Assembly (NCBI GenBank): GCA_016124575.1
Contig: WGNM01000016.1
Coordinates: 62,001-126,000, forward strand
From: Cryomorphaceae bacterium
GTDB taxonomy: Bacteria > Bacteroidota > Bacteroidia > Flavobacteriales_D > Sanyastnellaceae
Reading direction: 5' to 3'
Length of the DNA stretch: 64,000 nt
Below are positions 295 to 15,475 of this stretch, in pieces; positions within the stretch are counted from its first letter, which is position 1, and every line of letters begins with the position of its first letter. Below the pieces are notes generated by a model that had not been told where the DNA came from, ran no database searches, and worked only from the letters and a program-made list of their open reading frames with translations. Made by a program: the position numbers and the translations under genes.

Positions 295-1533
295 TTAGAA
301 TCGTACTTGAAACATGATGGTTCCGAGAATTGTCTTTACTTCACTTGCACCAGTCATTTGTGAAACTGATCCATGAAGCTTTAGATTATTCCCTTTGAGG
401 TATCGCGTCAATCCAAGTGAGAGTTCGCTATTCTCGCCAATAATCGAATTGGGATTGAATTCAAACTCTGGCTGCAATGCTGCATACCTTACATTTACTC
501 CGTATCCGCTTTTGGTGGTATATCCCAAATCCCCATGGTAGCCTCTTCCCAATGCTAAAAACTGACTAATCTGAGTCGGTAAAAGCGGTGCCTGACCAAG
601 TTGATCAGTATATGTCTGTTGCAACGAGGTTGCAGTAGCTACTAGGTATTCACCCAACAGTGAGAACCCCTTGTATTTAAAAAGAAAATCGCCATACAAC
701 TTTCGATAATCGGGCAGTTGAGCTGTACCCTCTGCGTTGAATATGAAAAACTCTCCATGTCCTTCACCGGTCACGCCACTGGCGCCATCGTTGTAACTTG
801 CGGCAGCCCCGATAACCAATTTCGGTTTTTCTTCATGACTTAGATCTGCAATTATTTCTTGGTTAGAATCTTTGAATTTACCTAGTGGATAAATATCAAG
901 TCTAGCCGCATATTTCAAGCCACCCAAGTCAACGTCTCTCGAATCTGTACCAAAGGAATTACGGCCATCACCAGAGGTAACGGCTATCGAAGGTTCGACA
1001 ATAAAATTATCATTTCCAAAGCTCGAATTTATATACAAACCAAATTCTCGTCCGGAACGGCTATAGGCTGTACTAAGCAGACTTCGATTTAAAAAAGTAA
1101 GTTGATCTTCCATTACCAGCATCTCGCGGTTATTGCCGATGCTCTGCTTCTGTCCGATGGTGATGACGGTCGAGGGATGAATGTGATAAGCTACCCATGC
1201 ATCTAGCAAAGCTTGGTTAGAACTGAAATCAGCTTGAATGAAAAAGCTAACTTTCTCGTTTTTTGCATTTCCAGAGACATTGAAATAGGAGCGTCGGGCA
1301 TTTAAGAAATAATCGGTTTCGTTTCCACCTACCTGCATGAAACCCACTGCTGGTTGAAGCATCCCGCCTATGGCGAATTGATAAGCGCCATCCTGAGTAC
1401 TGATCGTCAATCCGCTCCCCAATTCGAAACCCACGGTCGAAACAGATCCGTTGTCTTGGGCAATCGTTTCAGTGCTCAATGCAATCAATATAACAACGGC
1501 ACAGCGTGCTATAAATATCCTACTTACTTTCAT
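295..1533 (-). CDS. Outer-membrane porin, OprP/OprO-like beta-barrel (second copy)
   Basis: 412 residues with an N-terminal signal peptide (ending near ...TETIAQ), no hydrophobic segments after it, alternating beta pattern throughout and a C-terminal phenylalanine (IMFQVRF), as expected of a BAM-inserted outer-membrane barrel. The segments FFIQADFSSNQALLDAWV and IGQKQSIGNNRE match the phosphate-selective porin O/P family pattern. It is a paralogue of the porin at 3079-4389, sharing LLDAWV, GQK, the REFGL(Y/F) segment and the LGEY/LGEF strand. Its start overlaps the end of the M14 peptidase gene by 14 bp, so translational coupling is likely. The true substrate is unknown: the family name does not prove phosphate transport, and peptide or dicarboxylate uptake fits the neighbours better (inference). 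Confidence 0.85.
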   Translation of the reverse strand: MKVSRIFIARCAVVILIALSTETIAQDNGSVSTVGFELGSGLTISTQDGAYQFAIGGMLQPAVGFMQVGGNETDYFLNARRSYFNVSGNAKNEKVSFFIQADFSSNQALLDAWVAYHIHPSTVITIGQKQSIGNNREMLVMEDQLTFLNRSLLSTAYSRSGREFGLYINSSFGNDNFIVEPSIAVTSGDGRNSFGTDSRDVDLGGLKYAARLDIYPLGKFKDSNQEIIADLSHEEKPKLVIGAAASYNDGASGVTGEGHGEFFIFNAEGTAQLPDYRKLYGDFLFKYKGFSLLGEYLVATATSLQQTYTDQLGQAPLLPTQISQFLALGRGYHGDLGYTTKSGYGVNVRYAALQPEFEFNPNSIIGENSELSLGLTRYLKGNNLKLHGSVSQMTGASEVKTILGTIMFQVRF

Positions 1534-3082
1534 TGTCTATACTTTTAAAATCTCCCTTGAGCCTATAAATAGGAAGTTCATCGCCCATTTCAACTTTCAA
1601 CAATCCAAATGATACGAAGCTGTTCTTAGCCTCTGGCTCGAAGAGTTCAATGGCAAGATTGGATCTGGATTGCTCCAGTAACAACACCTGCGTCCCTTGC
1701 GGAAATTCTTTTCTCGACATTTCGGTAGTGGTCGATACGTGCTGGCGAAACACTCCTTCGTACTTTTCCGAATCCTGACTTGAAGCAGTGGCGATGTATT
1801 TCTCGACTTCTAAAAACTGCGGCTGATCAATTGCCACAAGTGTGAAACCAAGTGTCAGCAGTTTTTCCGACAAGTCGGGATAACCAGGCAACAGCACATA
1901 GCCAACAGGTCGTGATCGCTTAAGTGTAGGTGTCGATTTGAATGCGTCATGTACCGTGACATCGAGCGATATCTCTTCATTCTTGTCTAAATCAATAAAG
2001 GCAAGCTGTGTAACCTTCTCTTCAGCTTGGCTGGTTACGATTGCTTCGCTGGTGTTATCATTCAATGTGTTGAGCAAACTGTGAATGCCTTCTGCATTGT
2101 CGCTTGTTGTTTTTAGGAACGACATGGCAACCAAGTACCCGCAATGCACCCTGCGCGTGAATGAGGTGCGATTCAAGCCTACTCCTCGTACTTCTATAAG
2201 CGCTGAAATGGTATTGCGCAGGGCAAACGATGTGGCACTCGATCGTGCATTCGAAGATCCTTGATGAAAATGGGTATGTCCGCTGTGATCTTCCGTAGAG
2301 AAATAATCATGATGTCTGAATCCAACGCTCTCCATTGCTCTTCTGGCATCTGAAATGAATACATCGTTCGTGTAATTTCTCAATACTTGAGGCACATTGA
2401 GATTTCCAGAATACATGAACATGACGTCATAAATGGATGTTACGCCGAAGGTGCTCATCTTCGCATAATCCGCCCGGAAAGGGCGATACTCGTGAAAATC
2501 AACAGCTACTTGCGCATCAAAGGCATTAAAAGCATTCTTTAAGATGGTAGTTTCGGGAGCAAGCAGCTTTGTTTGATCTCTGTTCAGGTCTAGTCCGTTT
2601 GCGGCATACCTATTCTGCTTTTCAAACCCGTCAATATTGGCCATGGGTATCACTCCCAATTCTATCGTATTCAACAAAGCAGCACAGCTATCATTGTTGA
2701 GCATTTGATGCAATAAAAAAAGCATCGCTTCTGTGCTCGCTGGTTCATCGCCATGAAGTCCTCCCTGCATAAACACTCTGGTCTTTGCTTCTTGCGAGTC
2801 GGGGTTGGTGACGACTATCATTGGAATGTCTTTGCCTTCTTGGCTCTTACCGATGACCGATAGCTTTGCTTTTGCCGGGTGTTTTGAGACCAATTCATTC
2901 AAAAAAGCTATCAATTCGGCATGGGTGGTAAATCCCTTTTTCTTAGCAAATGCGGGTGTATTGATTTCGAGGATATGTTCCGGAAAAAAGGTCTCCGTGA
3001 CCTTCTTTGATTGAGGACTCAGTTGCGCGCATGAGAGCACAGGCAGCAGTAAAATCAATATGGTCACATTCCTTATCATCAA
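1520..3082 (-). CDS. M14-family zinc carboxypeptidase, probable lipoprotein
   Basis: 520 residues. The N-terminus has a hydrophobic stretch ending in a lipobox-like PVLSC (Cys 18), so an anchored exported protein is likely. M14 zinc-carboxypeptidase motifs are in order: zinc ligands in GGLHGDEPAS (HxxE), the substrate-binding DLNRD motif, the third zinc ligand in DFHEYRPF, and the general-base glutamate in LIEVRGVG. All key residues are therefore retained and the enzyme should be active. It would trim C-terminal residues from peptides in the periplasm or at the surface. It sits between two paralogous porins, overlapping both (4 bp upstream, 14 bp downstream). This arrangement suggests that peptide products are handed across the outer membrane. 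The exact substrate is not deducible. Confidence 0.88.
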   Translation of the reverse strand: MMIRNVTILILLLPVLSCAQLSPQSKKVTETFFPEHILEINTPAFAKKKGFTTHAELIAFLNELVSKHPAKAKLSVIGKSQEGKDIPMIVVTNPDSQEAKTRVFMQGGLHGDEPASTEAMLFLLHQMLNNDSCAALLNTIELGVIPMANIDGFEKQNRYAANGLDLNRDQTKLLAPETTILKNAFNAFDAQVAVDFHEYRPFRADYAKMSTFGVTSIYDVMFMYSGNLNVPQVLRNYTNDVFISDARRAMESVGFRHHDYFSTEDHSGHTHFHQGSSNARSSATSFALRNTISALIEVRGVGLNRTSFTRRVHCGYLVAMSFLKTTSDNAEGIHSLLNTLNDNTSEAIVTSQAEEKVTQLAFIDLDKNEEISLDVTVHDAFKSTPTLKRSRPVGYVLLPGYPDLSEKLLTLGFTLVAIDQPQFLEVEKYIATASSQDSEKYEGVFRQHVSTTTEMSRKEFPQGTQVLLLEQSRSNLAIELFEPEAKNSFVSFGLLKVEMGDELPIYRLKGDFKSIDNESK

Positions 3083-4389
3083 AATGCAATTGAGGTTAAA
3101 AAATGTCCAATAAGGAGATGTCCACTAATCGGATTCCCGATGATGTCCAACGACCCATCATTCAGTTTCACATAGCTAAACGACGCCTGAACTTTCACTC
3201 CATAATTTCTGCTCAAATACTTGCTCACACCAACTGCATAGGTATCTGGCCGGTTGTAAAATGTGCCATTGTTGAGAAATGAGTATTCATCGGCGTTCAG
3301 ATGCGTGTATCTGATGTCTATTGAGTATAAACTCTTAAAAAGGTAACCCACTTGAATATTGTAGCCAGATCCCAACATCATTCTGCTTCTGACGTAATTT
3401 TCAACATTTTGCGCGCCGTCGACGTCGAAAACGGTGGAGGTGGTGCCGTCAACGCGGACACGTCGTGTGATGTCATCAGGGACAGAAGCAGCGGTTTGAA
3501 CAAATTCTCCAAGGACAGAGAATCCTCTGTATTTGAACATAAAGTCAACGCCTATTTTAGAAAAGTCTGGAAGCGATTCTTGCAATGAATCGTTGAGATA
3601 CAAAATAGCCCCACTCTCTCGTCCGCGGCGGCTGCTCATACCTTTGTTAAAACTTGCATTTACGCCAATCACCAGCTTGGGCGATAGCTCACGCATCATA
3701 TCAACTTCTCTGAACTGGCCCAAATTCGAGAACAAACCAAAAGGCAAATAGTCGATTCTTCCTCCCACTTTGAATCCTCCGTGGTCAGCATTCAATGCAT
3801 TTAATCCGTCTCCATTGGTAAGGGTAAAGTAGTTCTTAAAATATGCTCCTCCTTTGGTGCGAATATCACCTTGGAAAAATAGGCCAAATTCGCGTATGGT
3901 GCTAAAAGCGGAGGTGAGCGGACTTCTTTCCACAAGCTGCAGCGACTGTGAAGAAACGGTTAAACCGCGATTATCGGTAGGTGTTGCTTTTTGTCCGAAA
4001 GCGAGCTTCACTCTTTTCGTGAAGTTGTAAGACACCCACGCATCCAACAAATAGGTTGAATTTGCTAAATCAACTTCTGGCGAACCGCTTAAATCTACTT
4101 GCAACCGGTAGTCAATTTTCTCTTTTGCTGCATCACCCGAGATCTCAAGCCTCAATCTGCGCATCCGAAAGCGGGTGTAAGTAGTTCGAGCTAAACTGGT
4201 ATCAGAATAAAAAGTTGTTTCTGAAAAAGGTTGGGCATACCCCCTAAAGGTCAGCGAATAGTCATTCGATGAAAAGGTAAGCCCTTCGCCGAATGTGTAT
4301 TTATTCAACACAGGATTTTGCGCCTGCACTGAAAAGTCAAACAAGCAAGATAACACAACTAAAATCGCAAATGTTATTTTACGTGCCAT
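3079..4389 (-). CDS. Outer-membrane porin, OprP/OprO-like beta-barrel (first copy)
   Basis: 436 residues with a cleavable signal peptide (about residues 1-23, ...FSVQAQ), long beta-rich body and terminal phenylalanine (LTSIAF). The segments LRLEISGDAAKEKIDYR, SYNFTKRVKLAFGQK and REFGLFFQGD place it in the phosphate-selective porin O/P-like family with the paralogue at 295-1533. The first 16 bp overlap the 3' end of iadA, and the stop codon overlaps the start of the M14 gene (ATGA), so the three genes are almost certainly cotranscribed. Expected role is passive passage of small charged solutes through the outer membrane; which solute is unknown. Confidence 0.85.
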   Translation of the reverse strand: MARKITFAILVVLSCLFDFSVQAQNPVLNKYTFGEGLTFSSNDYSLTFRGYAQPFSETTFYSDTSLARTTYTRFRMRRLRLEISGDAAKEKIDYRLQVDLSGSPEVDLANSTYLLDAWVSYNFTKRVKLAFGQKATPTDNRGLTVSSQSLQLVERSPLTSAFSTIREFGLFFQGDIRTKGGAYFKNYFTLTNGDGLNALNADHGGFKVGGRIDYLPFGLFSNLGQFREVDMMRELSPKLVIGVNASFNKGMSSRRGRESGAILYLNDSLQESLPDFSKIGVDFMFKYRGFSVLGEFVQTAASVPDDITRRVRVDGTTSTVFDVDGAQNVENYVRSRMMLGSGYNIQVGYLFKSLYSIDIRYTHLNADEYSFLNNGTFYNRPDTYAVGVSKYLSRNYGVKVQASFSYVKLNDGSLDIIGNPISGHLLIGHFLTSIAF

Positions 4390-5540
4390 GGCTGATTTTC
4401 AGGTTCGTAATTCCCTTTTACCAAGGCATTTTTGTCTTCCATCATCAGCACTCCTTTCGCAAAAACATCGGTTAGTTCCATGTTTTCGGAAAAGCAGCAG
4501 AAATCGGCATCACAACCCACTTTGATTCTTCCTTTGTTTACAAGTCCGAGATTTACAGCCGGATTGACGGTGACCAGCCTAATTGCTTTCTCGATCGACA
4601 ATCCGCCTTTCTGAATCAGGTCTACTACTTCTTTCAAATTAGCATCAATAGGTGCGCGCGTCACTCCGATCACCTTTCCTGAATCATCTCTTTTATCTAG
4701 TCCGGCATTGCCATCGGTGCTGAAGGTCATTTTATCGATTGACACCCCCTGTTCCAGAGCATAGAGCACAGCGAGGTAAGGTGCTGTGTACTTCGAAGCA
4801 CCTGTCGTAATATCGATCATACCACCCAACTTGGCAAACCGAATGGCTTCGTCGAACAATTCCTTTGTTCTGCCAACGTGTGTTGGAGAAATATGCTGTA
4901 TGGGAAATTCATAGTCTTGAACAAGTTCGAAGAGCAGGTCCATTTTCGACTTCAAGGCACCCAAATGCAGGTGCAATATCCCTTTTTTGGAAGCTATCAT
5001 CCCTCCCACCATCACTTCCCGAAGGATGCGAACCAACTCCAATGCAGTTGGGTACGACGATCGTATGTCGCTGATCGCGATTTTACACCCAATAACTTTG
5101 TCTATAAAAAGCAAATCCTCTTGCACGGTATCCATGATGTACATTGGATCAAGTCCGTAGTAACCAGTAAATATGTACGTGCTCAATCCTTCTTGCTCCA
5201 AGGCCTTTGCTTTGCTGTAAAGCGATCGGACATTCTTGGTGCACCCATCTGTACCCAATAAGCCAACAACGGTTGTAGAGCCACAGGCGATTATTTCTGA
5301 AAGAGTAAGCTCAGGCGTCATAGATGAAAAACCGTGCTTACCGCCAGCGCCAATTATATGAATGTGCTGATCAATGAATCCAGGAGTTACAATTCTACCC
5401 TGAGCATTCCACTCATGTGTTATTGCAGCATGAGCGTCTATGTGGCCTTCAATCGCAATGATCTTTCCATTTGCAATAAGGATATCCTTCATCCCCAGCG
5501 CCTCAGGCGCATAAACATTCGCATTTCGAATAAGTAACAT
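4374..5540 (-). CDS. iadA: Isoaspartyl dipeptidase (beta-aspartyl peptidase), amidohydrolase superfamily
   Basis: 388 residues, the usual length of IadA. The metal-centre motifs are all present: GFIDQHIHIIGAGG (HxH), GLLGTDG, the TGYYGLDP tyrosine region, the bridging lysine in CKIAISDIRS, HLHLG and HISPTHVGR histidines, and the STDGNAG aspartate. This enzyme hydrolyses beta-linked Asp-Xaa dipeptides that arise from protein ageing or from isoaspartyl polymers, releasing aspartate in the cytoplasm. No signal peptide is present, consistent with a cytoplasmic site. The gene lies 3 bp after dcuC and overlaps the following porin by 16 bp. Coupling to a C4-dicarboxylate carrier, outer-membrane porins and an exported carboxypeptidase argues for a nutrient-scavenging rather than purely repair role. 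Confidence 0.95.
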   Translation of the reverse strand: MLLIRNANVYAPEALGMKDILIANGKIIAIEGHIDAHAAITHEWNAQGRIVTPGFIDQHIHIIGAGGKHGFSSMTPELTLSEIIACGSTTVVGLLGTDGCTKNVRSLYSKAKALEQEGLSTYIFTGYYGLDPMYIMDTVQEDLLFIDKVIGCKIAISDIRSSYPTALELVRILREVMVGGMIASKKGILHLHLGALKSKMDLLFELVQDYEFPIQHISPTHVGRTKELFDEAIRFAKLGGMIDITTGASKYTAPYLAVLYALEQGVSIDKMTFSTDGNAGLDKRDDSGKVIGVTRAPIDANLKEVVDLIQKGGLSIEKAIRLVTVNPAVNLGLVNKGRIKVGCDADFCCFSENMELTDVFAKGVLMMEDKNALVKGNYEPENQPWHVK

Positions 5541-5543
5541 AGG

Positions 5544-6908
5544 CTATAGGAAATGAGCAATCAACAAGACGATCAAGCCGGCTGAAAGCGGTATTAGGTT
5601 TCTTTTTACTATTTCTATTGGAGATACTCCGGCAATCTCGGCGGTTGCGATAATTATCCCTGACACAGGTGAAACTGTTCTCCCCATTGAAGCTGCCAAA
5701 TTCATTGGCAACAAAACAGAAGCACTGCTAACACCGAGATCACGAGCTATTTTTGGTACCAATGGACCAAAGGCAAAAAAAGCCGCATTTCCACTTCCCA
5801 TCATGATCGACGAGAGGTAGATCATAACAGCAAGAACAATGGTTATCCCTACGAAGCCAAACCCGGCTCCAATCGACAAATCCACCAATCCGTCAACAAA
5901 ACCCAATGAAATCAATCCTTTTGCGAAGATATCGGCAGCAATTATCAAGGTTACCACAGACTTAAAAATATCCCCCATTCCATCCCAAAAAACCTTCAGT
6001 GACTGCATCACCTCTTTGATTTTCTTCACTCTTATCAACTCAAAGAGGATCGCGACAAACAGACTAATGATCATTGCTGTGGTAGTATCCAATACGATTG
6101 GATGAGGAAAAAAACTAAACAGGTCAGAAAATACAATTAAAAGAATCAAAGGCAGCACTGGAATGATCGCGTAATGCATGGGTACTTCAACCTTTACTTC
6201 CTTCGTGAACTCAGAATTCTTTACTTCTACAGCTCCCTTTTTATCGAAGTATCGATTGGTAAAAAAGTAAACAACCATCAAGGTGATGTTCAATGGGGCA
6301 ACTAAAATCAACTGTTCTTCAATGAAATAGTTGATGGCTTCCATTTCAGCATATGAAGCTGCACTGGCAGTGATGGCCGAGGCCGGACCTACACAAAAGG
6401 CTGTGCATGCTGTGATAACGGATGCTGCTGAAAGTCGACTAACACCAAGACTCAATAAAATTGGAAAAATGGATGCCATCAATAGCAAACTTAGTCCTGC
6501 CGCCGATGGGATACAAATAAATAAAACTTGACCGATAGGGATAACAAAAACCGCAGTGAGATTGGGATGACTTCTCAGAACATGCAATGGCTTCATGGCA
6601 AGATGTACCAATGCATTGGAAGCCCCAATTTTATGCGTGTAGGCTACAAATCCGCCAATAGACATAATCATCAATCCAACACCTGCATTAATCGATGAAA
6701 AGGATTCCTTGATTAGTTTAAACAAATCAAAACCACCCAATCCGGTTGATTTCACTAAGTCTGGAAGACTGGAGCCTAAAACCAACGCCACGCCCATCAT
6801 CAGCAGTCCCGATATTAGGAGAACAGCATGTGGATAGAACTTGTTGATGAGCAATTTCGCGACAACAACAATGAACACCAGTGATAATATCGGGCCTAGA
6901 ATCGTCAT
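5544..6908 (-). CDS. dcuC: DcuC-family C4-dicarboxylate transporter
   Basis: 454 residues and strongly hydrophobic, with about 12 apparent membrane segments. The segments SIGGFVAYTHKIGASNALV, IPSAAGLSLLLMASIFP, the MMGSGNAAFFAFGPLVP loop and SMGRTVSPVSGIII are characteristic of the DcuC carrier family in the inner membrane. In characterised bacteria this family exchanges or takes up C4-dicarboxylates such as succinate, fumarate or aspartate. Here it is 3 bp upstream of iadA and 3 bp downstream of an LTD lipoprotein gene, so it is a core member of the operon. Moving isoaspartyl dipeptides or the aspartate released by IadA is the obvious inference; the direction and substrate cannot be read from the sequence. 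Confidence 0.88.
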   Translation of the reverse strand: MTILGPILSLVFIVVVAKLLINKFYPHAVLLISGLLMMGVALVLGSSLPDLVKSTGLGGFDLFKLIKESFSSINAGVGLMIMSIGGFVAYTHKIGASNALVHLAMKPLHVLRSHPNLTAVFVIPIGQVLFICIPSAAGLSLLLMASIFPILLSLGVSRLSAASVITACTAFCVGPASAITASAASYAEMEAINYFIEEQLILVAPLNITLMVVYFFTNRYFDKKGAVEVKNSEFTKEVKVEVPMHYAIIPVLPLILLIVFSDLFSFFPHPIVLDTTTAMIISLFVAILFELIRVKKIKEVMQSLKVFWDGMGDIFKSVVTLIIAADIFAKGLISLGFVDGLVDLSIGAGFGFVGITIVLAVMIYLSSIMMGSGNAAFFAFGPLVPKIARDLGVSSASVLLPMNLAASMGRTVSPVSGIIIATAEIAGVSPIEIVKRNLIPLSAGLIVLLIAHFL

Positions 6909-6911
6909 ATC

Positions 6912-7859
6912 TTAAAATGCTGTTCCGTTTGATTTGGTTCCTGGAGAAAATAACACCCCTGGGACTACCGAGCCATGTTGCACGAAATCGCCCGTCAAAT
7001 CAGGATTTCGTGTATACGACTCGTTGGGATTATTTGACAGCGGCTCAATATCGAAAGCGATAACCACATTTCCATCTGCATTGATCAAATACATCACATC
7101 GCCAGCATTCGTCATGTTGAAATCACCCGAGGTTGATGTCTGCACCACCGCTCCACCAAAACTACCTGTCGGTGTGCCGCCTCCAAAAACCACCATTGCA
7201 GCTCCAGCGGGGATGATAGAACCATCTGGAAATAGGTGATTTGGGGTATTTGCAGCTAAACCTGAATCATCGAAGATCTTGTATCCACTCACATCTAAAT
7301 CCAATGAAGAGAGGTTTACGAACTCCAAAAATTCATCATCGGCCTGGTTGTATACGCCATCATTGTTTGCATCTCCATCGAGGGCATTGTTGGATGGGTC
7401 GTATAAAACCTCGTTCAATATCAATTGAGGAACTTGTTCCACATCATCGTCTTCAATATTGATTGTCAATTGTTGAAATCCATTGGCACTGCCATTTTGC
7501 ACTGATCCAATTCCGACCACTACCGATTCATTGCCTTCTTCAAGGTCATCTTGAATGGCTGTAATGGTCATGCTTCCAGTGATGGCACCGGCAGGTACAG
7601 TGATGCTACTTGCACTTTCTGAATAGTCGCTTTGTGAAGCTGAGCCTGAAAAATCAAGGTTTATTATTACATTCTCCGTATGACTTGCAGATAAAGTAGC
7701 AACCACCGTTGCTAGGCCGCCATCTTCCGAAATATTGATCTGATTGCTGGATATGGTAACAGTTGGACCTTCTTCTCCGCCTGGGACAACGACATCGTCG
7801 GTTTCGCAGGAAAGAAGAAAAAGAGAAAACACCATCAAGTATATCGCGCTTCTAATCAT
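6912..7859 (-). CDS. Lipoprotein with Calx-beta-like and lamin-tail (LTD) domains
   Basis: 315 residues. A short hydrophobic N-terminus ends in the lipobox LLSC (Cys 18), followed by acidic ETDD. That acidity after Cys is compatible with surface export of lipoproteins in this phylum. Residues about 35-140 have the Calx-beta repeat pattern (ISEDGGLATVVATLSA, then a DDLEEGNESVVVGI acidic Ca-binding stretch and ITINIEDDD-like end). Residues about 146-315 are a lamin-tail domain (LILNEVLYDPS, DGVYNQADDEFLEFVNLS, NPNESYTRNPDLTG). The LTD half is closely similar to that of the next gene upstream (7920-9305). No T9SS tail is present, so it reaches the surface as a lipoprotein if at all. Function unknown; adhesion or substrate binding for the downstream operon is an inference. 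Confidence 0.85.
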   Translation of the reverse strand: MIRSAIYLMVFSLFLLSCETDDVVVPGGEEGPTVTISSNQINISEDGGLATVVATLSASHTENVIINLDFSGSASQSDYSESASSITVPAGAITGSMTITAIQDDLEEGNESVVVGIGSVQNGSANGFQQLTINIEDDDVEQVPQLILNEVLYDPSNNALDGDANNDGVYNQADDEFLEFVNLSSLDLDVSGYKIFDDSGLAANTPNHLFPDGSIIPAGAAMVVFGGGTPTGSFGGAVVQTSTSGDFNMTNAGDVMYLINADGNVVIAFDIEPLSNNPNESYTRNPDLTGDFVQHGSVVPGVLFSPGTKSNGTAF

Positions 7860-7919
7860 TTCGTTAGGTTGTTGAATGTAGTCGTATTCATTCGTTGAAA
7901 TAGTCGGTTGCCCGGGGCA

Positions 7920-9305
7920 TCAATGCTTGATGAAACGGGTCACCTTATCTCCTCTTTCGGTTTGTATTCTCAGGAAATAGACCCCGGCGTTGAACATCGA
8001 TAGGTCGATTTTCGTCTGCACAACAGCGCTAGAACCTTGCAATACTTTTCCATCAATGGCTACTATTTCATAGCTGAGCACCCGTGCTGATGAAACGATA
8101 TTGATAAACTCCGCGGCAGGATTCGGGTAAATCGATACAGTAAACGGGTTGATGATCGTACCTACATTGTCGCCCTGGTTGCTAATTGTAACATTCAAGC
8201 TTCCCGAAACACCCGATCCATCATTGGCAGTTGCTACAACGGTCACAACACCGTCTGTTAACGCCTCCAAAAATCCATTGGTATCTATTGTTCCAGACCC
8301 AGTGCCGTTTACCAGCGACCATGTAACAGTGGTGTTTTCTGCTTCTAAAGGAAGAACAATAGCAATCATTTGAAGTCCGCCCCCTTGCTCAGTTATGGTT
8401 GTCACTCCTCCTTCGCCATCAACCACGATCGATGTAACCAATACCGACGATTGTCCGCTGACAACGATGTTCATCGAACCTGTTATCCCTGATGCATCAT
8501 TCGCTGTGGCAACTACCGTTATATCGCCATCGGCGGCAGCGGTTAACAAACCATTTTGATCAATGGTTGCGGCACCAGTTATAGCCTCTACCGACCATGA
8601 AACCGATTGATCGGTGGCAAACAAAGGAAGGATGGAAGCGAACATTTGCAAGGTGCCTTGGTTCTCGGCTATTTCAGTAATGCCCAGTTCAGATGTTACA
8701 TCGATGCTTTCAACCACAAAAGCAGTGTTGAAAGGTGTGCCGTCGAACATGGTTCCAGGTGAAAACAAAACGTCGGCTAGCAAAGAGCCGTGTTGAACAA
8801 ATGCTTCATCGCCTGTAATGTCGGGTGTGCGCGTGTACGATTCATTAGGGTTGTTCGATAGGGCGTCAGAATCAAACGTCAACTCCCATTCGCCTTGCGG
8901 GTTTTTAATACCGATAACCTCACCTGTGTTGTTGAAATTCAGGTTCGATGGGGTGTCGTCTGCACTCAGAACCACCGCACCTCCGAAAGAACCAACGAGC
9001 GGTCCACTGCCAAATACAACAAGAGCGCCCATAGGAGGGACAAATGTTCCTGCTGGAATGGTGTATCTCAAAGTGCCTGAAGTGATGTCGTCCCAAATCT
9101 CATAGCCACTTGCATCAAAATTGGTGCTGCCAATGTTCACGAATTCTATAAAAGAGTCCATTTCTTGGTTGTAAACACCATCGCCATTGGCATCACCCAG
9201 CAAACCTGAGTCTGATGGGTCGTATAAAACTTCGTTAATGATTAACTGTGCAGACAATTCATTGCCCGCAAAAAAAATCGCTAGCAGTATTAAAATTCTT
9301 TTCAT
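7920..9305 (-). CDS. Secreted LTD / Ig-like (BIG2) protein with T9SS type A sorting domain
   Basis: I place the start at ATG 9305 (MKRILILLAIFFAG, a good signal peptide) rather than at an in-frame ATG 42 bp upstream that would bury the signal sequence. That gives 461 residues. In order: LTD domain (LIINEVLYDPSDSG, NPNESYTRTPDITG), two bacterial Ig-like group 2 repeats (each with VSWSVE/VTWSLV, a TIDxNGxL segment and VVATANDxSGxxGS), and a T9SS type A tail (SIYPNPAAEFINI ... GVYFLRIQTERGDKVTRFIKH). The tail predicts export by the T9SS whose core genes lie at 30.6-36.5 kb. It is the first gene of the leftward locus and faces the MocR regulator across a 127-bp gap carrying a direct-repeat operator. 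Confidence 0.9.
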   Translation of the reverse strand: MKRILILLAIFFAGNELSAQLIINEVLYDPSDSGLLGDANGDGVYNQEMDSFIEFVNIGSTNFDASGYEIWDDITSGTLRYTIPAGTFVPPMGALVVFGSGPLVGSFGGAVVLSADDTPSNLNFNNTGEVIGIKNPQGEWELTFDSDALSNNPNESYTRTPDITGDEAFVQHGSLLADVLFSPGTMFDGTPFNTAFVVESIDVTSELGITEIAENQGTLQMFASILPLFATDQSVSWSVEAITGAATIDQNGLLTAAADGDITVVATANDASGITGSMNIVVSGQSSVLVTSIVVDGEGGVTTITEQGGGLQMIAIVLPLEAENTTVTWSLVNGTGSGTIDTNGFLEALTDGVVTVVATANDGSGVSGSLNVTISNQGDNVGTIINPFTVSIYPNPAAEFINIVSSARVLSYEIVAIDGKVLQGSSAVVQTKIDLSMFNAGVYFLRIQTERGDKVTRFIKH

Positions 9306-9397
9306 GATACAGTGGGTTTTGATCGCTTTTGAGTCGCTTTCAAACAAATTTCTTAATTCAACACCCTCAAAAGACTCTTTTTTTTATCTAGATTCAC

Positions 9398-9428
9398 CAT
9401 ACCAGTTAATACTTTTTAAGCATACCAA
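9398..9428. promoter_or_regulatory. Direct-repeat operator, CATACCAGT-N14-CATACCA, upstream of the MocR gene
   Basis: CATACCAGT at 9398-9406 and CATACCA at 9421-9427 are repeated head to tail with a 23-bp period, about two helical turns. This is the architecture expected of dimeric MocR/GabR regulators. The second repeat ends 5 bp before the regulator's ATG, so occupancy would block its own expression; it also lies in the gap shared with the divergent LTD/DcuC/IadA locus. The same arrangement recurs inverted at 10916-10945. Seen directly in sequence; the binding protein is inferred. Confidence 0.7.
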
Positions 9429-9432
9429 TACA

Positions 9433-10914
9433 ATGGACATCTTGCTCGAACGCATCGTAAACGACTACCAAAAAAACAACAAGAACGCAAGTAAGCGGAT
9501 ATATCTGCGCCTATATGAGACCTTACGAAACGGCATTTTGAACAACGATTACCCTGTAGGTAACCATTTACCATCGACCAGAGTTTTAGCCTCCACACTA
9601 AGAATTTCGCGCAGTTCGGTGATGAGAAGTTACGAATTATTGGGCATCGAAGGCTATATCAATTCGAAACAGGGTTCAGGCTATGCCATTCTCGACATTT
9701 TGAAGAAAAATGAAATACGAAAGGTGCCCATATCAGCCGATAAATATGCCGAACTTTCAAACGAAGGAAAGTCGTTTCTAGCCAACATCAACCTCATTAA
9801 CCCGACTGATGATAAAAGCATTGCATTCAGACCTGGCCTACCTCCGCTCGATATTTTTCCAGTGAACCTCTGGAAGAACCTGAGTAATTTGTATTGGCGA
9901 AACATCAAAACATCAACCCTCTCCTACTATCCCTCGTCAGGAATAGAATCGCTCAAAAAAAGTCTGGCATCGTACCTGAACATCAGCCGAAACCTCAAGT
10001 GCAACTACCACCAAATCATTATTGTTTCCGGCTCTTTGCAATCGCTTTTCTTAATTGGGAAAGTATTGATAAACATAGGTGATACAGTGTACATGGAAAA
10101 CCCGACTTTTCCGAACGTGCATACCATTTTTCGCAGTTTAAATGCGCATATTGTAGGACTCGAAATGGATCTCGAAGGTGCAATAGTGCCGTCTAAAAAG
10201 AAAAAAACGACGGTTCAACCTAAATTGATTCATGTTACTCCTTCTGCCCACTATCCATCAGGCGTTCCGATGAGTTTGACAAGAAAACACGAAATCCTCG
10301 AATGGGCAGCGGCAAACAAAAGTTTTATCATCGAGAACGACTACGAACACGATGTCATCCATCGAAATCAGAAAAACCCGAGTTTGTTTAGCTTAGACAA
10401 CGAAGACAGAACCATTTACCTCGGCACCTTCAACCGTGTGCTCCACCCTTCTATACGACTGGGATACATGATCGTGCCCAATCACCTGATCAATGCAGTT
10501 CAAGCTCTCCAAAAGCTCTCACATCGATTCATCTCCCCTTCTATTCAAATCGTGATGAATCAATTCATTGAAAAGAAGATGTTGATGTCTCACATAAAAA
10601 ATGTCCAACAAGCCGCCGATGAGCGCAGAAAGACGTTCATTCATGCTTTCAATATCGCTTTTAAAGGAAAACTAACCATCGCTGAACTTCCCTCCGATGT
10701 CTTGCACTTGCTCATCGAACTGCCTCCCGAAGTAGCTGAATCGAAATACATTTCCATTCTCCAAGACCAAAAAATTGTGGTCCACCCTTACAGCAAATGC
10801 TTTATACATGGACCAGTAGGAAACGGCATCATCGTTGGTTTCTCATCTGTGCGGACACCTGCAATGAAAAAGAAAATACAACTCATGGCCGATTTGTTCT
10901 TCGAACACTTCTAA
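9433..10914 (+). CDS. MocR/GabR-like transcriptional regulator (GntR wHTH plus aminotransferase-fold domain)
   Basis: The ATG at 9433 (MDILLERIVN) is chosen because the longer in-frame extension is low-quality sequence crossing the operator. That gives 493 residues. Residues about 18-88 are a GntR-type winged helix (RLYETLRNGILN, GNHLPSTRVLASTL, SRSSVMRSYELL, SKQGSGYAI). Residues about 130-490 are a type I aminotransferase fold: SGSLQSLFLIG, NPTFPN, HVTPSAHYPSG, ENDYEHDV (the PLP-pyridine aspartate), then GTFNRVLHPSIRLGY. In this last motif the family usually has F-S-K, the lysine forming the PLP aldimine. Here it is Asn334-Arg335 (CGT at 10435-10437), so the Schiff-base lysine is absent. The protein still looks intact. 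It probably controls itself, the divergent peptide locus and the downstream hydrolase through the flanking repeats. Confidence 0.9.
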   Translation: MDILLERIVNDYQKNNKNASKRIYLRLYETLRNGILNNDYPVGNHLPSTRVLASTLRISRSSVMRSYELLGIEGYINSKQGSGYAILDILKKNEIRKVPISADKYAELSNEGKSFLANINLINPTDDKSIAFRPGLPPLDIFPVNLWKNLSNLYWRNIKTSTLSYYPSSGIESLKKSLASYLNISRNLKCNYHQIIIVSGSLQSLFLIGKVLINIGDTVYMENPTFPNVHTIFRSLNAHIVGLEMDLEGAIVPSKKKKTTVQPKLIHVTPSAHYPSGVPMSLTRKHEILEWAAANKSFIIENDYEHDVIHRNQKNPSLFSLDNEDRTIYLGTFNRVLHPSIRLGYMIVPNHLINAVQALQKLSHRFISPSIQIVMNQFIEKKMLMSHIKNVQQAADERRKTFIHAFNIAFKGKLTIAELPSDVLHLLIELPPEVAESKYISILQDQKIVVHPYSKCFIHGPVGNGIIVGFSSVRTPAMKKKIQLMADLFFEHF

Positions 10915-10915
10915 G

Positions 10916-10945
10916 TGGTATGAAATAATTTACTACACTGGTATG
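10916..10945. promoter_or_regulatory. Second direct-repeat operator, inverted copy of the 9398-9428 site
   Basis: TGGTATG at 10916-10922 and ACTGGTATG at 10937-10945. On the minus strand this reads CATACCAGT-N14-CATACCA, identical in both half-sites and in the 23-bp period to the site before the regulator gene. It begins 2 bp after the regulator stop codon and ends 51 bp before the start of the lipoprotein hydrolase gene, so that gene is a likely second target. Confidence 0.68.
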
Positions 10946-10996
10946 TGCCAATTTGGATTTTCTAGACAAACTTTCACCGTTGTACTTTTAAGAACG

Positions 10997-11905
10997 ATGA
11001 AAATATATTTCCTCTTTTTCGCAGTTATCTTGCTTTCCGTTTTTTCTTCTTGCGATAAAAATGAAGAACTCACGCGGACGTCTTCTAAAAACGCGCTTTC
11101 GGGAACGGGTTCATTTACTTTCACCAACTACCCGCCTTTTGCCGATAAACCGATTGAAGTGTACTACCATGTGCCTGAAAATGCCGATGTAAACTCGCCC
11201 ATTCTGATAACACTTCACGGCGACGACCGTAGCGGTGCATATTCACGAAGTGCATTTATCGAAAAGGCCAATCTTCTCAATTTTATCGTGATCTCTCCGC
11301 AATTTTCTGAAGATCATTTCCCTGGCGGGGATGCCTACAATTTGGGTAATATCTTTTACGATGGCGACAACCCAAGTCCGACGACGATCAACGATCAATC
11401 TCTTTGGTCGTTTATGGTGATCGACCCAATTTTCGCCTATTTCAAAGAATTGACTGGCAACAATGCATCAACCTACGATTTGTTTGGATTTTCTGCTGGT
11501 GCTCAGCTCGCTCACCGCCTTTTGATCTACCAACCCAATGCAAACTTCAATAGAATTGTGGCTGCTTCCGCAGGATGGTACACTGTTCCCAACGACGTCG
11601 TTTTTCCTTACGGATTGACTGGTAGTCCGGCAGAAACGGCCGACCTCACTCCGGTTTTCGATGCACAATTGAAAATAATCGTAGGTTCCAACGACAACGA
11701 TCCCGACTCACCCGGACTGCGGCACAATGAATTTGCAGATGCTCAAGGACTCACCAGATTGGATCGCGCTCAATATTTCTACAATTCTGGATTGATTGAA
11801 GCACAGGCGGGAGAATTTCCTTTTAACTGGACATACCAATCGGTAAATGGTGCCGGCCACGATTTGATTCCCATGGCATCTTTTGCGGCCGATTTGCTCT
11901 ATTAA
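10997..11905 (+). CDS. Alpha/beta-hydrolase-fold lipoprotein
   Basis: The start ATG at 10997 gives MKIYFLFFAVILLSVFSSC, a lipoprotein signal with a lipobox-like FSSC; the upstream in-frame ATG adds 18 residues before it and is rejected. The product has 302 residues. The segment ILITLHGDDRSGAY resembles the oxyanion-hole HG motif, GFSAG is the nucleophile elbow (Ser), and the late NGAGHDLIP supplies a candidate catalytic His, with an acidic residue in VGSNDND. Fold and catalytic order match esterase/PHB-depolymerase-like or peptidase-like hydrolases. The substrate is unknown. It stands alone between the MocR-type operator and the GGGP-synthase gene, and is probably part of the same regulon as the leftward locus. 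Confidence 0.8.
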   Translation: MKIYFLFFAVILLSVFSSCDKNEELTRTSSKNALSGTGSFTFTNYPPFADKPIEVYYHVPENADVNSPILITLHGDDRSGAYSRSAFIEKANLLNFIVISPQFSEDHFPGGDAYNLGNIFYDGDNPSPTTINDQSLWSFMVIDPIFAYFKELTGNNASTYDLFGFSAGAQLAHRLLIYQPNANFNRIVAASAGWYTVPNDVVFPYGLTGSPAETADLTPVFDAQLKIIVGSNDNDPDSPGLRHNEFADAQGLTRLDRAQYFYNSGLIEAQAGEFPFNWTYQSVNGAGHDLIPMASFAADLLY

Positions 11906-12047
11906 CTTGTTCCACAGAATACACAGGTGAAGTCTATGTGGTTGATTCCACTTCGGGAGATTAGTCTATCTGCCTCACATTCATAGCATTACACAATTCA
12001 ACCCATCGTTTTGGTGTGAACACTCACCATACATACTTCGGTTAATG

Positions 12048-12055
12048 TACTTTTG
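12048..12055 (+). promoter_or_regulatory. Candidate -7 box TACTTTTG before the GGGP synthase gene
   Basis: TACTTTTG fits the Bacteroidota TAnnTTTG -7 element. It ends only 4 bp before ATG 12060, so a transcript starting the usual few bases downstream would have almost no leader. No clear -33 TTG was seen at a standard distance. Confidence 0.4.
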
Positions 12056-12059
12056 TCGG

Positions 12060-12767
12060 ATGATGCTCGATAAAATCAAAGCGGCAAAAAAAGCGAAACA
12101 GAAGCTTGTAGCGATACTCATTGATCCCGACAAGGCCGATGATCGCATGCTTCAAAGTGTCGTGATTTCAAACCCTGATTTGGTCTTTATCGGCGGCAGC
12201 CTCATCACCGAAGGTGGATTCGAAAAACGGGTGGCAGAAATAAAGGAAAAGCTAAAAAGGCCTTTGGTGCTGTTTCCCGGACATCCTTCGCAAGTTACCC
12301 CAGACGTTGACGCCGTCCTTTTTCTTAGTCTCATCTCGGGTAGAAATGCCGATTTGTTGATCGGTCAACACGTGGTAGCAGCGCCGAGAATAAAAGAGCT
12401 GGGCTTAGAAACCATCGCAACAGGGTACATACTTATTGACGGTGGAAAACCAACTACAGCATCGTACATCAGCGGCACGCAGCCCATTCCTCGCGACAAA
12501 GGCACCATCGCAGCAGCAACGGCTATGGCGGGTGAAATGCTCGGACTGCAATGCATCTACCTCGATGCCGGCAGCGGTGCTTCATTGGCAGTTCCCCCTG
12601 ACCTCATCCGCGCCGTGAGCGCGAACACTGAAATACCGCTTATTGTAGGTGGCGGAATTCGTACAAAAGAACAAATCCGGTCGGCCTTCGAAGCGGGTGC
12701 CGACCTTGTTGTAGTTGGAACCGCCATTGAAGAACAACCGGATTTGCTGGCTTCTTTGCTTGATTAA
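12060..12767 (+). CDS. Geranylgeranylglyceryl phosphate synthase family protein (PcrB/GGGPS-like)
   Basis: About 235 residues from ATG 12060 (MMLDKIKAAK). An ATG at 12045 is in frame but overlaps the apparent promoter box. The product is a TIM-barrel prenyltransferase: the N-terminal AILIDPDKA segment, FIGGSLITEGGF, VLFPGHPSQVTPDVDAVLFLSL, then YILIDGGKPTTASYISGT, YLDAGSGA, and the phosphate-binding IVGGGIRTKEQI and ADLVVVGTAIEE motifs. In archaea the family links a polyprenyl diphosphate to sn-glycerol-1-phosphate. Bacterial members of this longer type occur in Bacteroidota, and their final lipid is poorly known. No neighbouring gene for a second ether-lipid step is visible. It faces tail to tail with the TonB receptor (14-bp gap). 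Confidence 0.9.
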   Translation: MMLDKIKAAKKAKQKLVAILIDPDKADDRMLQSVVISNPDLVFIGGSLITEGGFEKRVAEIKEKLKRPLVLFPGHPSQVTPDVDAVLFLSLISGRNADLLIGQHVVAAPRIKELGLETIATGYILIDGGKPTTASYISGTQPIPRDKGTIAAATAMAGEMLGLQCIYLDAGSGASLAVPPDLIRAVSANTEIPLIVGGGIRTKEQIRSAFEAGADLVVVGTAIEEQPDLLASLLD

Positions 12768-12781
12768 GCTGGAATCAAAAA

Positions 12782-15475
12782 TTAAAATTCTAGCGTCAAA
12801 CCAACCAAGAAGTTACGTCCTGCCTGCGGATAGAAAAAATTCTCTGAAACCCGCTGACTATCATACAGATAGCTGTAGGTATATCCGTTATTCACGAAAT
12901 CGACATCCAAAATATTGTTGACAAGCAAGTTCACGGTCAAGGCGCTCATCATGGTCTCTTTCAAGGTGTAAGTAAACCTCAAATCGTTCACGAAGTAAGC
13001 ATCCATCTTGTTGGTCTCACTCATGGTGTTGTCGAGGTATTGCTCGCCCACGTAACTGGTTTGCCAGCCGATCTCTCCAACATGATTTTTTGTTTTCAGA
13101 AAGGTGTACGACAGCAATCCTCCAGCGGTTAAACTCGGAGAGTAGCTGATGTCGGTAGTGCCCAAATCTCTCTGCTCGTAGCCAATGAAATTGAAGTCGG
13201 CATCGTAGGCCACCACTTGCTCATTGAAATCTACAATCTTGTTCTGGCTGTATGTCGTGGTGCCATAAATGCGCCATTTCTCTTTTATTCTCCAGTCGAT
13301 TACCACTTCAACACCTCGGCGATAGCTGTTGTCGACATTGGTGCGAATGGGCGTGCCAACGTCGTTCAAAGCGCCTGTCAAAATCAATTGGTCGGTGTAC
13401 TGCATGTTGAACAAATTCACACTGAAACCATAGGTGGCGGTATTGCGGCGATAACCAAATTCGATGTCTTGCAGGCTTTCAGCTTTGGGCTTATCACCTA
13501 GCGGACGGTCGATGTAGTCGTTGCGCATAGGCTCTCTGTTCCCATAAGCTATGGATGCGTACACTTGATCTTGTCCGGATACGTTGTATGTCAGCCCTCC
13601 TTTTGGATTGATAAACGACAAGGTATCGCCAGTGTTCAAGGTTCTTAAATCGGCATCAACGCCACGCACTTGGTAGTGCACTGTTCGGTATTGAACGTCA
13701 GCAAAAACAATGAGTTTGTGGTTGATATCGTAATTGATTTTCAAGTAGTTGTTGAAATCGGTCTTCAACCCATTGTTCAGGTAGTAAAAATCGGCATGGT
13801 TGGTACCATTGGTATGTTCCATCCAGGTCAACTCACCAAAGTGATCTCCGTCGTAACGGTTCCAAGCACCACCAAAGTTCACTTGCAATTGATCGTCTCC
13901 TAACCAATGCAAATAGTTCAAGGCATAGGTGGTTCCGTAAAAATCATTCTCCAACCAGCGCCTTCTGATGACATCGGTTTTTGATATGCCGGCAATGCTG
14001 TTCAACAAGACGTCGCCTTGTGGGTTGGTAATGGGCGCACCGTTGGGGTCGGTTACTATGTTGTGCTCGATCTCTACCTGATCCCACCCGAAATTGGATT
14101 CGAAATCGGTATTGATCGGATTTCCTTCGGCGTCAACACCATTGCTGAACTCTTGGGCAGCATCCAACACGATTGGATTCAACCCGTAATCGGTAAAATC
14201 GTCGTCGGTGCGGTACTGCTCGAAATATCCTCTGCCGTAAGTGTAGTGTCCTGCAACGTTGAAGGTCAAGTTGCGGATAATCGTCCCACCTGCGTGCAAT
14301 TGATAGTGGTCTTGCGCATAGTCGTCGACTTGGTTGTTGTAGGTGTAGAAGTTGTATGTGCGACCAGAAGTGAGTAGGTTCTCCAATTCACCATCCGACA
14401 ATCCATTTCTTGCTGCATAGTCCATCATGCCTGCCTCATCGTTGTTCAAACGCGACTCTGGCGTACCAAACCACGATTGATAGGTACGTTCTTTTCCTCC
14501 AAAAACAATGGCTTTTACATGCACACGTCCTGGATTCCACTCTCCCGCTAAATAGTAGCTCTTCAAATCGCTGCTGGCGCGATCGATGTATCCATCGCTG
14601 GTTATTTGCGAGAGTCGGCCTTCGAGCGACCAGATGTTATTGATCTTGCCTGTTCCGAAACTCACGCTGTGCTTCCAGGTATTGAAAGAACCGTGGCTAT
14701 TGGCAATGCTAGCGTAGGGCTGATTCGAAATTCTCGCTGTATTTACCGCTACCGACCCGCCAAATGCTCCAGCACCGTTGGTGGATGTACCAACACCACG
14801 TTGAATGGTGATGTTGTCGGCACTCGTTGCAAAATCAGGTAGATTCACCCAAAATACTTGCTGCGATTCTGGATCGTTGTAAGCAATTCCGTTGATGGTA
14901 ACGTTGATTCGACTTTGGTCGGAACCGCGTATGCGCATCCCGGTATACCCGATACCCGTTCCGGCGTCAGATGTTGTTACTACCGACGGTGTAAAGCGCA
15001 AGAGATAAGGCAAGTCTTGTCCGTTATTCAACGGCTTAATATCTGCCTGGGTAATTTCATTTACGGCAAACATGCCATTTTTCGTGTTCCCTAAAGAGCC
15101 TGTGATAGACACAGCTTCAATAGACACCAAAGGCGTAATGACATTGGTAGTCACGGGATCCATGACGGTGATGACATCTCCGTCTTTGGCTAAGTTAAAA
15201 TCGCGTTGGAAATCACCTTCGATTTGAAGCGATTCCCGAATGGATTTGAAGCCAATGTGGGTAACAACAAGAACGTAATAGCCCGGTTGAAATCCGGTCA
15301 ATTTATACCCTCCATTTTCATCGGTAAGGGTCCCGTGTGGCGAGTTTTCGATCACTACCACGGCACCTTCTAAGGGTTTACCTTGAGCGTCAATTATGCG
15401 CCCACTGATGCTGGCTGATTGTGCAAAAGAAAGCAATCCTACCAGACAAAATAACATTAAAACAACTGGTCTCAT
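12782..15475 (-). CDS. TonB-dependent outer-membrane receptor, probably for thiamine or a thiamine precursor
   Basis: 897 residues: signal peptide (to ...LSFAQS), a carboxypeptidase-regulatory-like beta-sandwich (ISGRIIDAQGKPLEGAVVVI ... YVLVVTHIGFKS, residues about 23-105), plug domain (about 120-240, with the MRIRGSDQSRINVTINGI segment and VGTSTNGAGAFGGSV), then a long beta-barrel ending in LTLEF. It moves a ligand through the outer membrane using TonB energy. The ligand is inferred from cis-regulation: a TPP riboswitch lies directly upstream at 15528-15617, so expression should fall when thiamine pyrophosphate is plentiful. No thiamine kinase or inner-membrane transporter gene is adjacent in this window. 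Confidence 0.92.
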   Translation of the reverse strand: MRPVVLMLFCLVGLLSFAQSASISGRIIDAQGKPLEGAVVVIENSPHGTLTDENGGYKLTGFQPGYYVLVVTHIGFKSIRESLQIEGDFQRDFNLAKDGDVITVMDPVTTNVITPLVSIEAVSITGSLGNTKNGMFAVNEITQADIKPLNNGQDLPYLLRFTPSVVTTSDAGTGIGYTGMRIRGSDQSRINVTINGIAYNDPESQQVFWVNLPDFATSADNITIQRGVGTSTNGAGAFGGSVAVNTARISNQPYASIANSHGSFNTWKHSVSFGTGKINNIWSLEGRLSQITSDGYIDRASSDLKSYYLAGEWNPGRVHVKAIVFGGKERTYQSWFGTPESRLNNDEAGMMDYAARNGLSDGELENLLTSGRTYNFYTYNNQVDDYAQDHYQLHAGGTIIRNLTFNVAGHYTYGRGYFEQYRTDDDFTDYGLNPIVLDAAQEFSNGVDAEGNPINTDFESNFGWDQVEIEHNIVTDPNGAPITNPQGDVLLNSIAGISKTDVIRRRWLENDFYGTTYALNYLHWLGDDQLQVNFGGAWNRYDGDHFGELTWMEHTNGTNHADFYYLNNGLKTDFNNYLKINYDINHKLIVFADVQYRTVHYQVRGVDADLRTLNTGDTLSFINPKGGLTYNVSGQDQVYASIAYGNREPMRNDYIDRPLGDKPKAESLQDIEFGYRRNTATYGFSVNLFNMQYTDQLILTGALNDVGTPIRTNVDNSYRRGVEVVIDWRIKEKWRIYGTTTYSQNKIVDFNEQVVAYDADFNFIGYEQRDLGTTDISYSPSLTAGGLLSYTFLKTKNHVGEIGWQTSYVGEQYLDNTMSETNKMDAYFVNDLRFTYTLKETMMSALTVNLLVNNILDVDFVNNGYTYSYLYDSQRVSENFFYPQAGRNFLVGLTLEF

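Follow-up and report, generated by a model that had tools for sequence, protein, structure and literature searches.

What is the function of a direct repeat that flanks a regulator gene in matching form? The repeat lies in a 64,000-nucleotide (nt) stretch of the genome of a Cryomorphaceae bacterium (assembly GCA_016124575.1, contig WGNM01000016.1, positions 62,001 to 126,000), which we call the window; positions below are those of the window. The gene between the repeats (9433..10914, + strand) encodes a MocR-subfamily regulator of 493 amino acids. Operator 1 (9398..9427, + strand) has the form CATACCAGT-N14-CATACCA, which is a direct repeat with a 23-bp period. Operator 2 (10916..10945, - strand) is the same arrangement inverted, and it lies between the stop codon of the regulator and the start of a hydrolase gene. 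Based on comparisons with related genomes, we consider it likely that the repeats are operators of the regulator between them and that this regulator governs a regulon for the use of beta-linked aspartate. The conserved sites, the membership of the regulon, the promoter geometry, the residue losses in the regulator and the family of the hydrolase were all obtained by sequence comparison.

Direct repeats and their conservation

When we scanned the window, all 16 specified bases were present in each of the two sites, and the spacers of the two sites differ. This agrees with a previous sequence-only reading of the window, which had given the same two positions and had noted the different 14-bp spacers. 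Across the 3.68-Mb genome, these two sites are the only exact copies of CATACCAGT-N14-CATACCA; the number of exact matches expected from the base composition is 4.7e-5 for the window and 0.003 for the genome. With up to three mismatches allowed, shuffled windows had an average of 0.27 matches, and two matches were reached in 5 of 100 shuffles. If the pattern is relaxed to CATACCA-N16-CATACCA with at most two mismatches, then there are 23 matches in the genome and the reversed control pattern has 18, which means that the two-mismatch matches are mostly background. Operator 1 ends 5 nt before the ATG of the regulator (9433). Operator 2 begins 1 nt past the regulator's stop codon and ends 51 nt ahead of the ATG of the hydrolase (10997). 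Positions 7000-13000 had no match in Rfam at the gathering cut-offs, so the repeats are not explained by a known RNA family.

The sequence-only reading had proposed conservation of the repeats beside orthologues of the regulator as a check. We ran this check on orthologues from 19 genomes, which represent 6 families and 9 genera (the genome of the window is G000). Every orthologue that we used has E = 1e-123 or better, and the orthologues form a separate group: in 14 genomes, a search with a limit of 1e-8 gave the next best match at 5e-20. They are also rare. They were found in 2 of 114 genomes of the same family (E <= 1e-60), 5 of 299 of the order (E <= 1e-40), 8 of 395 of the class (E <= 1e-75) and 10 of 64 of another set, family f23 (E <= 1e-75); these sets of genomes overlap. 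A contig scan returned a single relative, the sister Flavobacteriales MAG_179 (contig JANRAA010000043.1), whose regulator is 89% identical.

All 19 orthologues carry the direct repeat in the start region of the regulator and on its strand, with 11 to 14 of the 14 half-site bases matching (the lowest is G153, with 11). The consensus of these sites is CATACCAAT-N14-(C/A)ATACCAAT. In 15 of the 19 genomes, an ATG lies 2 to 5 nt past the site. G519 and G582 have TTG in its place, and the start codon is unsettled in G535 and G393.

Similar sites are found upstream of the hydrolase. The hydrolase gene is present in 17 of the 19 genomes (E <= 1e-30), and 15 of these 17 have a site upstream of it: 13 have a site of the hydrolase's own, and in two (G535 and G393), the site is shared with the divergent regulator. 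We also trained a matrix on the 19 regulator sites only and applied it to the 160 nt upstream of each of the 17 hydrolases. Thirteen of these regions were properly scored, and 11 of them match, each at the floor of 1/301; the two without a match are from G140 and G153. The sites in G532, G582, G535 and G393 rest on the consensus scan instead of the matrix. By that scan, the hydrolase's own site matches at 14 of 14 bases in G532 and at 12 of 14 in G582.

In some relatives, the target genes have moved. In G535 and G393, which both belong to family f62, the operon that encodes the DcuC transporter and isoaspartyl dipeptidase lies about 11 kb away from the regulator, with a site of its own immediately ahead of the first gene. 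In six genomes of f23, it is the hydrolase that has moved: it is on another contig in G421 and about 11 to 12 kb away in G682, G689, G693, G687 and G726, and in each case, it retains a site. Two genomes lack the hydrolase (G480 and G688, E <= 1e-30), and they have no site scoring at least 12 behind the regulator; G688 is only 81% complete. Among the 64 genomes of f23, 8 have both regulator and hydrolase, 2 have the regulator only, 1 has the hydrolase only and 53 have neither (P = 9e-8, Fisher test). The hydrolase-only genome (G681, an 84% complete draft) has a 12 of 14 site ahead of the hydrolase. The moved operon, the moved hydrolases and the two genomes without hydrolase or second site are three natural experiments (REARRANGEMENTS) that support regulation.

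Operator-like sites also precede several genes for predicted secreted proteins in families f62 and f4 (L070 3326-4372, L071 5881-6924, L033 37-2595, L032 up to 9202 and L016 3868-7254). These proteins share similar N-termini (ENFDYPAG..DHGW..HS..TNP or close). Of the three that were scanned, L070 and L016 have a type IX secretion system (T9SS) sorting tail and L033 has no match in Pfam. It is possible that these proteins are an uncharacterised family of regulon members.

Promoter geometry and predicted sign of control

The flavobacterial sigma-A -7 box is described in a passage of PMC9723704 as TAnnTTTG at -12 to -5. The window has a similar box on the regulator side (TAGATTCA, 9389..9396, + strand, computed to match at 4 of 6 bases), which ends 1 nt ahead of operator 1. 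The candidate box of the divergent operon (GTCTTTTG, 9368..9375, - strand) starts 22 nt from operator 1, and that of the hydrolase (AAACTTTC, 10968..10975, + strand) starts 22 nt from operator 2; both match at 4 of 6 bases by eye.

The same distances recur in the relatives. In 10 representatives, the best average match to TAnnTTTG on the regulator's strand ends 1 nt ahead of the operator (4.9 of 6, as compared to a baseline over offsets with a mean of 1.96 and a standard deviation [SD] of 0.63). For 10 divergent promoters, the best match on the target strand begins 22 nt past the operator (4.7 versus 1.96, SD 0.63). Eleven other targets, which we analyzed separately, again have their best match at 22 nt (3.9 versus 1.83, SD 0.54). 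An analysis that does not use the motif led to the same position: in both sets of targets, the most informative window of 8 columns is at offset 22, above all 1,000 random rotations.

Given these distances, the operator would span about -3 to +27 relative to the inferred start of the regulator's transcript and about -64 to -35 relative to those of the targets. These placements predict autorepression and activation, respectively. The geometry fits control of the GabR type, in which a divergent catabolic operon is activated while the regulator's own gene is repressed. We infer protein-DNA binding, the sign of control and the transcription starts, and below, the ligand and the substrate. We propose that a head-to-tail dimer of the regulator would bind two CATACCA half-sites that are 23 bp apart. 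At operator 1, which would cover the regulator's own transcription start, binding would repress the regulator; because the same operator would lie at -64 to -35 of the divergent operon, it would let the regulator activate that operon. From operator 2, the regulator would activate the hydrolase in the same way.

Could the sites have another explanation? It is true that the two copies are near each other and that site 2 is degraded in the sister genome G001. Nevertheless, a local duplication or a chance repeat without function is barely credible: the spacers differ, the repeats are conserved across six families, and sites stand ahead of relocated genes. The earlier reading had also argued for selected structure over local duplication. 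It had assigned site 1 to the regulator and the divergent operon and site 2 to the hydrolase, and both assignments are borne out by the relocated operon and the relocated hydrolases, which have sites in front of them. Alternatively, the regulator might be a pure repressor of itself and of all its targets, to be released by a ligand, with the sites at -64 to -35 acting by upstream interference. There is a precedent in EnuR, which is a MocR protein that represses a catabolic operon (a passage of PMC8739950). We think that this is clearly unlikely here, because the target sites are outside the -7 region and have a fixed phasing to the -7-like box, as expected for an activator. Repressor sites more usually overlap the box or the start, as seen on the regulator side.

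Several observations weigh against operators with the roles that we propose. Around the regulator starts, a period of 23 was counted for 17 pairs of half-sites and each of four other periods for a single pair, but this count is partly circular, as the windows were centred on sites that were found using a period of 23. The orthologues are not fully independent, since 10 of the 19 are from f23, which also supplies 4 of the 10 and 4 of the 11 representatives for the promoter geometry, and several of the genomes are draft assemblies that are incomplete (completeness 81 to 100%). In G140 and G153, the stretch between the regulator and the hydrolase lacks a site; in these genomes, the hydrolase is directly behind the regulator, and an inverted match of 11 or 12 of 14 bases follows it, ahead of a secreted-protein gene. 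Site 2 of G001 matches at 12 of 14 bases, with just one full half-site. The three -7-like boxes of the window itself are weak, at 4 of 6 bases each. Finally, the exact pattern ATACCA-N17-ATACCA has 28 matches in 12 genomes, of which 15 are inside the regulon and 13 are outside (the reversed control has 7). It is absent from G140 and G153, and all three of its matches in G582 are outside the regulon. Given this background, the scan alone cannot define further members of the regulon.

Putative targets and ligand of the regulator

The divergent operon is on the - strand. Its first gene encodes a T9SS-sorted protein with lamin-tail and Big_2 domains (7920..9305). This is followed by genes for a Lamin-tail/Calx-beta protein (6912..7859), a DcuC-family transporter (5544..6908), isoaspartyl dipeptidase (IadA, or beta-aspartyl-peptidase; 4374..5540, E = 5e-87), a porin of the Porin_O_P family (3079..4389), an M14-type zinc carboxypeptidase-like protein (1520..3082) and a second porin-like protein, which is similar to the first porin and has no match in Pfam (295..1533). 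Beyond the second porin, to the left of the window and on the same strand, are genes for a 964-amino-acid protein and then a 559-amino-acid protein. In the relatives, the recurring set of genes is the lamin-tail domain proteins, DcuC, IadA, porin, M14, porin and the hydrolase, as compared within the stretches that were fetched, not all of which cover the whole operon (that of G157 stops before DcuC).

The target behind operator 2 (10997..11905, + strand) is a lipoprotein-like alpha/beta hydrolase of the PahZ1 (poly(aspartic acid) hydrolase-1) family. PahZ1 is its closest relative by both homology and fold: its best matches in PDB are poly(aspartic acid) hydrolase-1 (E = 2.6e-45), and the nearest fold to its predicted structure (predicted local distance difference test score [pLDDT] of 90) is PahZ1 from Pedobacter, with a root-mean-square deviation of 1.7 A. 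The Ser, Asp and His residues are in place as well. S166 and D233 are invariant in 14 sequences, and H288 is found in 13 of the 14; the exception is a row without that stretch. In this fold, these three residues are presumably the catalytic triad. On the other hand, LpqC is another relative of the hydrolase (E = 1.5e-34), which counts against the assignment, and so the substrate of the hydrolase could differ. The genome of the window also encodes a second PahZ1-like domain, at the C terminus of the 559-amino-acid protein (G000:C31:57596-59275, or L094 9597-11276; 37.5% identity). We did not find an operator of this protein's own left of the window, nor did we find a site at L091, which is the window genome's second PahZ1-like gene, or at two G001 fragments (L092 and L093).

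Passages of PMC4456602 report that PahZ1 cleaves poly(Asp) internally, at beta-amide bonds, and that beta-tri(Asp) is a substrate whereas beta-di(Asp) is not. Isoaspartyl dipeptidase could finish such a breakdown of beta-linked aspartate. Since the hydrolase is PahZ1-like, IadA, the transporter and the porins join it in what would be a single locus for isoaspartyl or polyaspartate utilisation. In G532 (L073 1039-3322), a sodium:dicarboxylate symporter and asparaginase II (both from Pfam) lie beyond the second porin, after the operon. The use of beta-linked aspartate is the best reading of the PahZ1-like hydrolase, the isoaspartyl dipeptidase and these two genes of G532 taken together. The regulon would import and degrade beta-linked aspartate: the hydrolase would cleave a beta-aspartyl polymer internally at the cell surface, and the porins, the M14 protein, the DcuC-type carrier and isoaspartyl dipeptidase would be further members of the route. 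Another gene near the locus that points to an acidic substrate was seen by eye in a relative, where a dicarboxylate-carrier-like protein follows the hydrolase (L015 905-2374).

The regulator combines an N-terminal GntR winged helix-turn-helix with a C-terminal class I aminotransferase fold (Pfam GntR, 8.7e-11; Aminotran_1_2, 1.1e-17), which is the domain structure of the MocR subfamily. MocR operators consist of repeated boxes, often direct, and the predicted operator is likewise a direct repeat with a 23-bp period in all 19 orthologues. GabR is the nearest relative with a solved structure: it is the best sequence match in PDB (E = 5e-41) and the best match by fold. Our structure model of the regulator is of only moderate quality (pLDDT of 77, and low around residues 336-341). 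We compared the nine active-site residues of GabR that are given in Table 2 of PMC6917764. Neither hallmark of a MocR regulator that depends on pyridoxal 5'-phosphate (PLP) is present: the Schiff-base lysine (Lys312 of GabR) is replaced by R335 and the aspartate that contacts the pyridine nitrogen (Asp279) is replaced by N302, each in 19 of 19 orthologues. Also replaced in all 19 are Arg207 (by N228), Tyr205 (by F226) and Phe250 (by Y274); Arg430 is replaced by K455 in 18 of 19; and in the printed alignment, His114 lies opposite P134 by eye. Arg319 (R342, phosphate-binding) is kept in all 19 and Tyr281 is kept in 18.

Passages of three papers bear on these positions. Asp279 and Lys312 are conserved across all of the MocR clusters examined in PMC6677901, the Lys302His variant of EnuR loses PLP incorporation and becomes a constitutive repressor (PMC8739950), and MpaR K314A loses reporter activity (PMC10790758). 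As none of the 19 orthologues retains either hallmark residue, it is unlikely that the usual aldimine switch operates, and a regulator with Arg at the Schiff-base position probably senses its signal by some means other than a Lys-PLP aldimine. Such a sensor would probably bind its ligand directly; our guess is that the ligand would be an acidic aspartyl compound. The best NCBIfam match of the regulator (9433-10914) is PdxR (NF052282, 335 bits versus a cut-off of 320). We rejected this label, as the PLP residues are lost and the conserved targets that we identified include no gene for PLP synthesis. Automatic annotation would nevertheless name the regulator PdxR, which is likely to be a misannotation in databases.

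Both the ligand and the substrate have alternatives. The regulator might hold PLP non-covalently and sense PLP or an adduct of PLP with an amino acid, as the retention of Arg319 in all 19 orthologues and of Tyr281 in 18 might suggest. This seems rather doubtful to us given the changes of Lys312 to Arg and of Asp279 to Asn throughout, at positions reported as conserved across MocR clusters, and given that EnuR Lys302His is unable to incorporate PLP (PMC8739950). As for the substrate, the locus might serve the use of dipeptides from cyanophycin, or of isoaspartyl peptides that stem from aged protein, instead of a polyaspartate polymer. The window genome does encode two proteins above the TIGR02069 cut-off for cyanophycinase. 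However, these two genes lie on different contigs from the locus, with no match to the operator pattern nearby (within the same contig, the closest match is tens of kb off), while the hydrolase that is marked by an operator is PahZ1-like, from a family with endo-beta-aspartyl hydrolase activity. We therefore regard this as somewhat unlikely and prefer beta-linked aspartate polymer as the substrate. The two cyanophycinase-type proteins are at L018 1300-2151 (G000:C4) and L019 1369-2247 (G000:C2), and a search with PF03575 located cyanophycinase-type genes in other parts of the genome and none in this locus.

Implications and comparison with known systems

The sequence-only reading had called the regulon undescribed. 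Our literature search, which covered mostly titles and abstracts and left out supplementary tables and subscription papers, is in line with this, as it found no description; nor did any title or abstract report a MocR group without the Schiff-base lysine. The identity of the polyaspartate hydrolase, the promoter geometry, the losses of PLP residues and the match of the half-site with GabR go beyond that reading. As a tentative idea, with the balance tilting somewhat against it, a MocR lineage may have given up PLP, its fold may bind an aspartyl ligand directly and so switch a dedicated beta-polyaspartate regulon, and a natural beta-linked polymer or oligomer of aspartate may be a nutrient of diverse Bacteroidota. 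A candidate operator, targets and promoter geometry are now defined for a MocR group that lacks the PLP hallmarks, which makes the assumption that PLP is the sensor directly testable. Also, PahZ1-type enzymes, which are known from the degradation of synthetic polyaspartate, gain the context of a putatively regulated pathway in Bacteroidota, and this context offers a route to their natural substrate.

The hydrolase resembles PahZ1 of Pedobacter KP-2 and Sphingomonas KT-1 in sequence, in fold and in the aligned Ser/Asp/His positions. In passages of PMC4456602, PahZ1 is described as an isolated enzyme acting on polyaspartate and beta-tri(Asp)s, and those passages mention no regulator. Among the MocR regulons described by Suvorova and Rodionov in 2016 (PMC5320631), two direct boxes are common (186 regulons; the commonest structure has 245), and one or several helical turns separate the repeats. 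None of the words DcuC, isoaspartyl, peptidase and dicarboxylate is used in the main text of that paper, to which our search was confined. PdxR-type MocR proteins (NF052282) share with the regulator its best NCBIfam match, and the regulator differs from them in its lost PLP residues and in that its conserved targets, as far as we identified them, include no gene for PLP synthesis. The closest parallel is GabR from Bacillus subtilis, which has the same two-domain architecture. According to a passage of PMC4494728, the GabR operator consists of direct ATACCA repeats, and this hexamer is identical to the half-site found here. GabR represses gabR and activates gabTD (PMC6917764), which are the two roles that the promoter geometry suggests for our regulator. 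Unlike GabR, the regulator has replacements at Lys312 and Asp279, has Asn and Lys instead of the arginines that bind the carboxylate of GABA (gamma-aminobutyric acid; Arg207 and Arg430), and has other targets.
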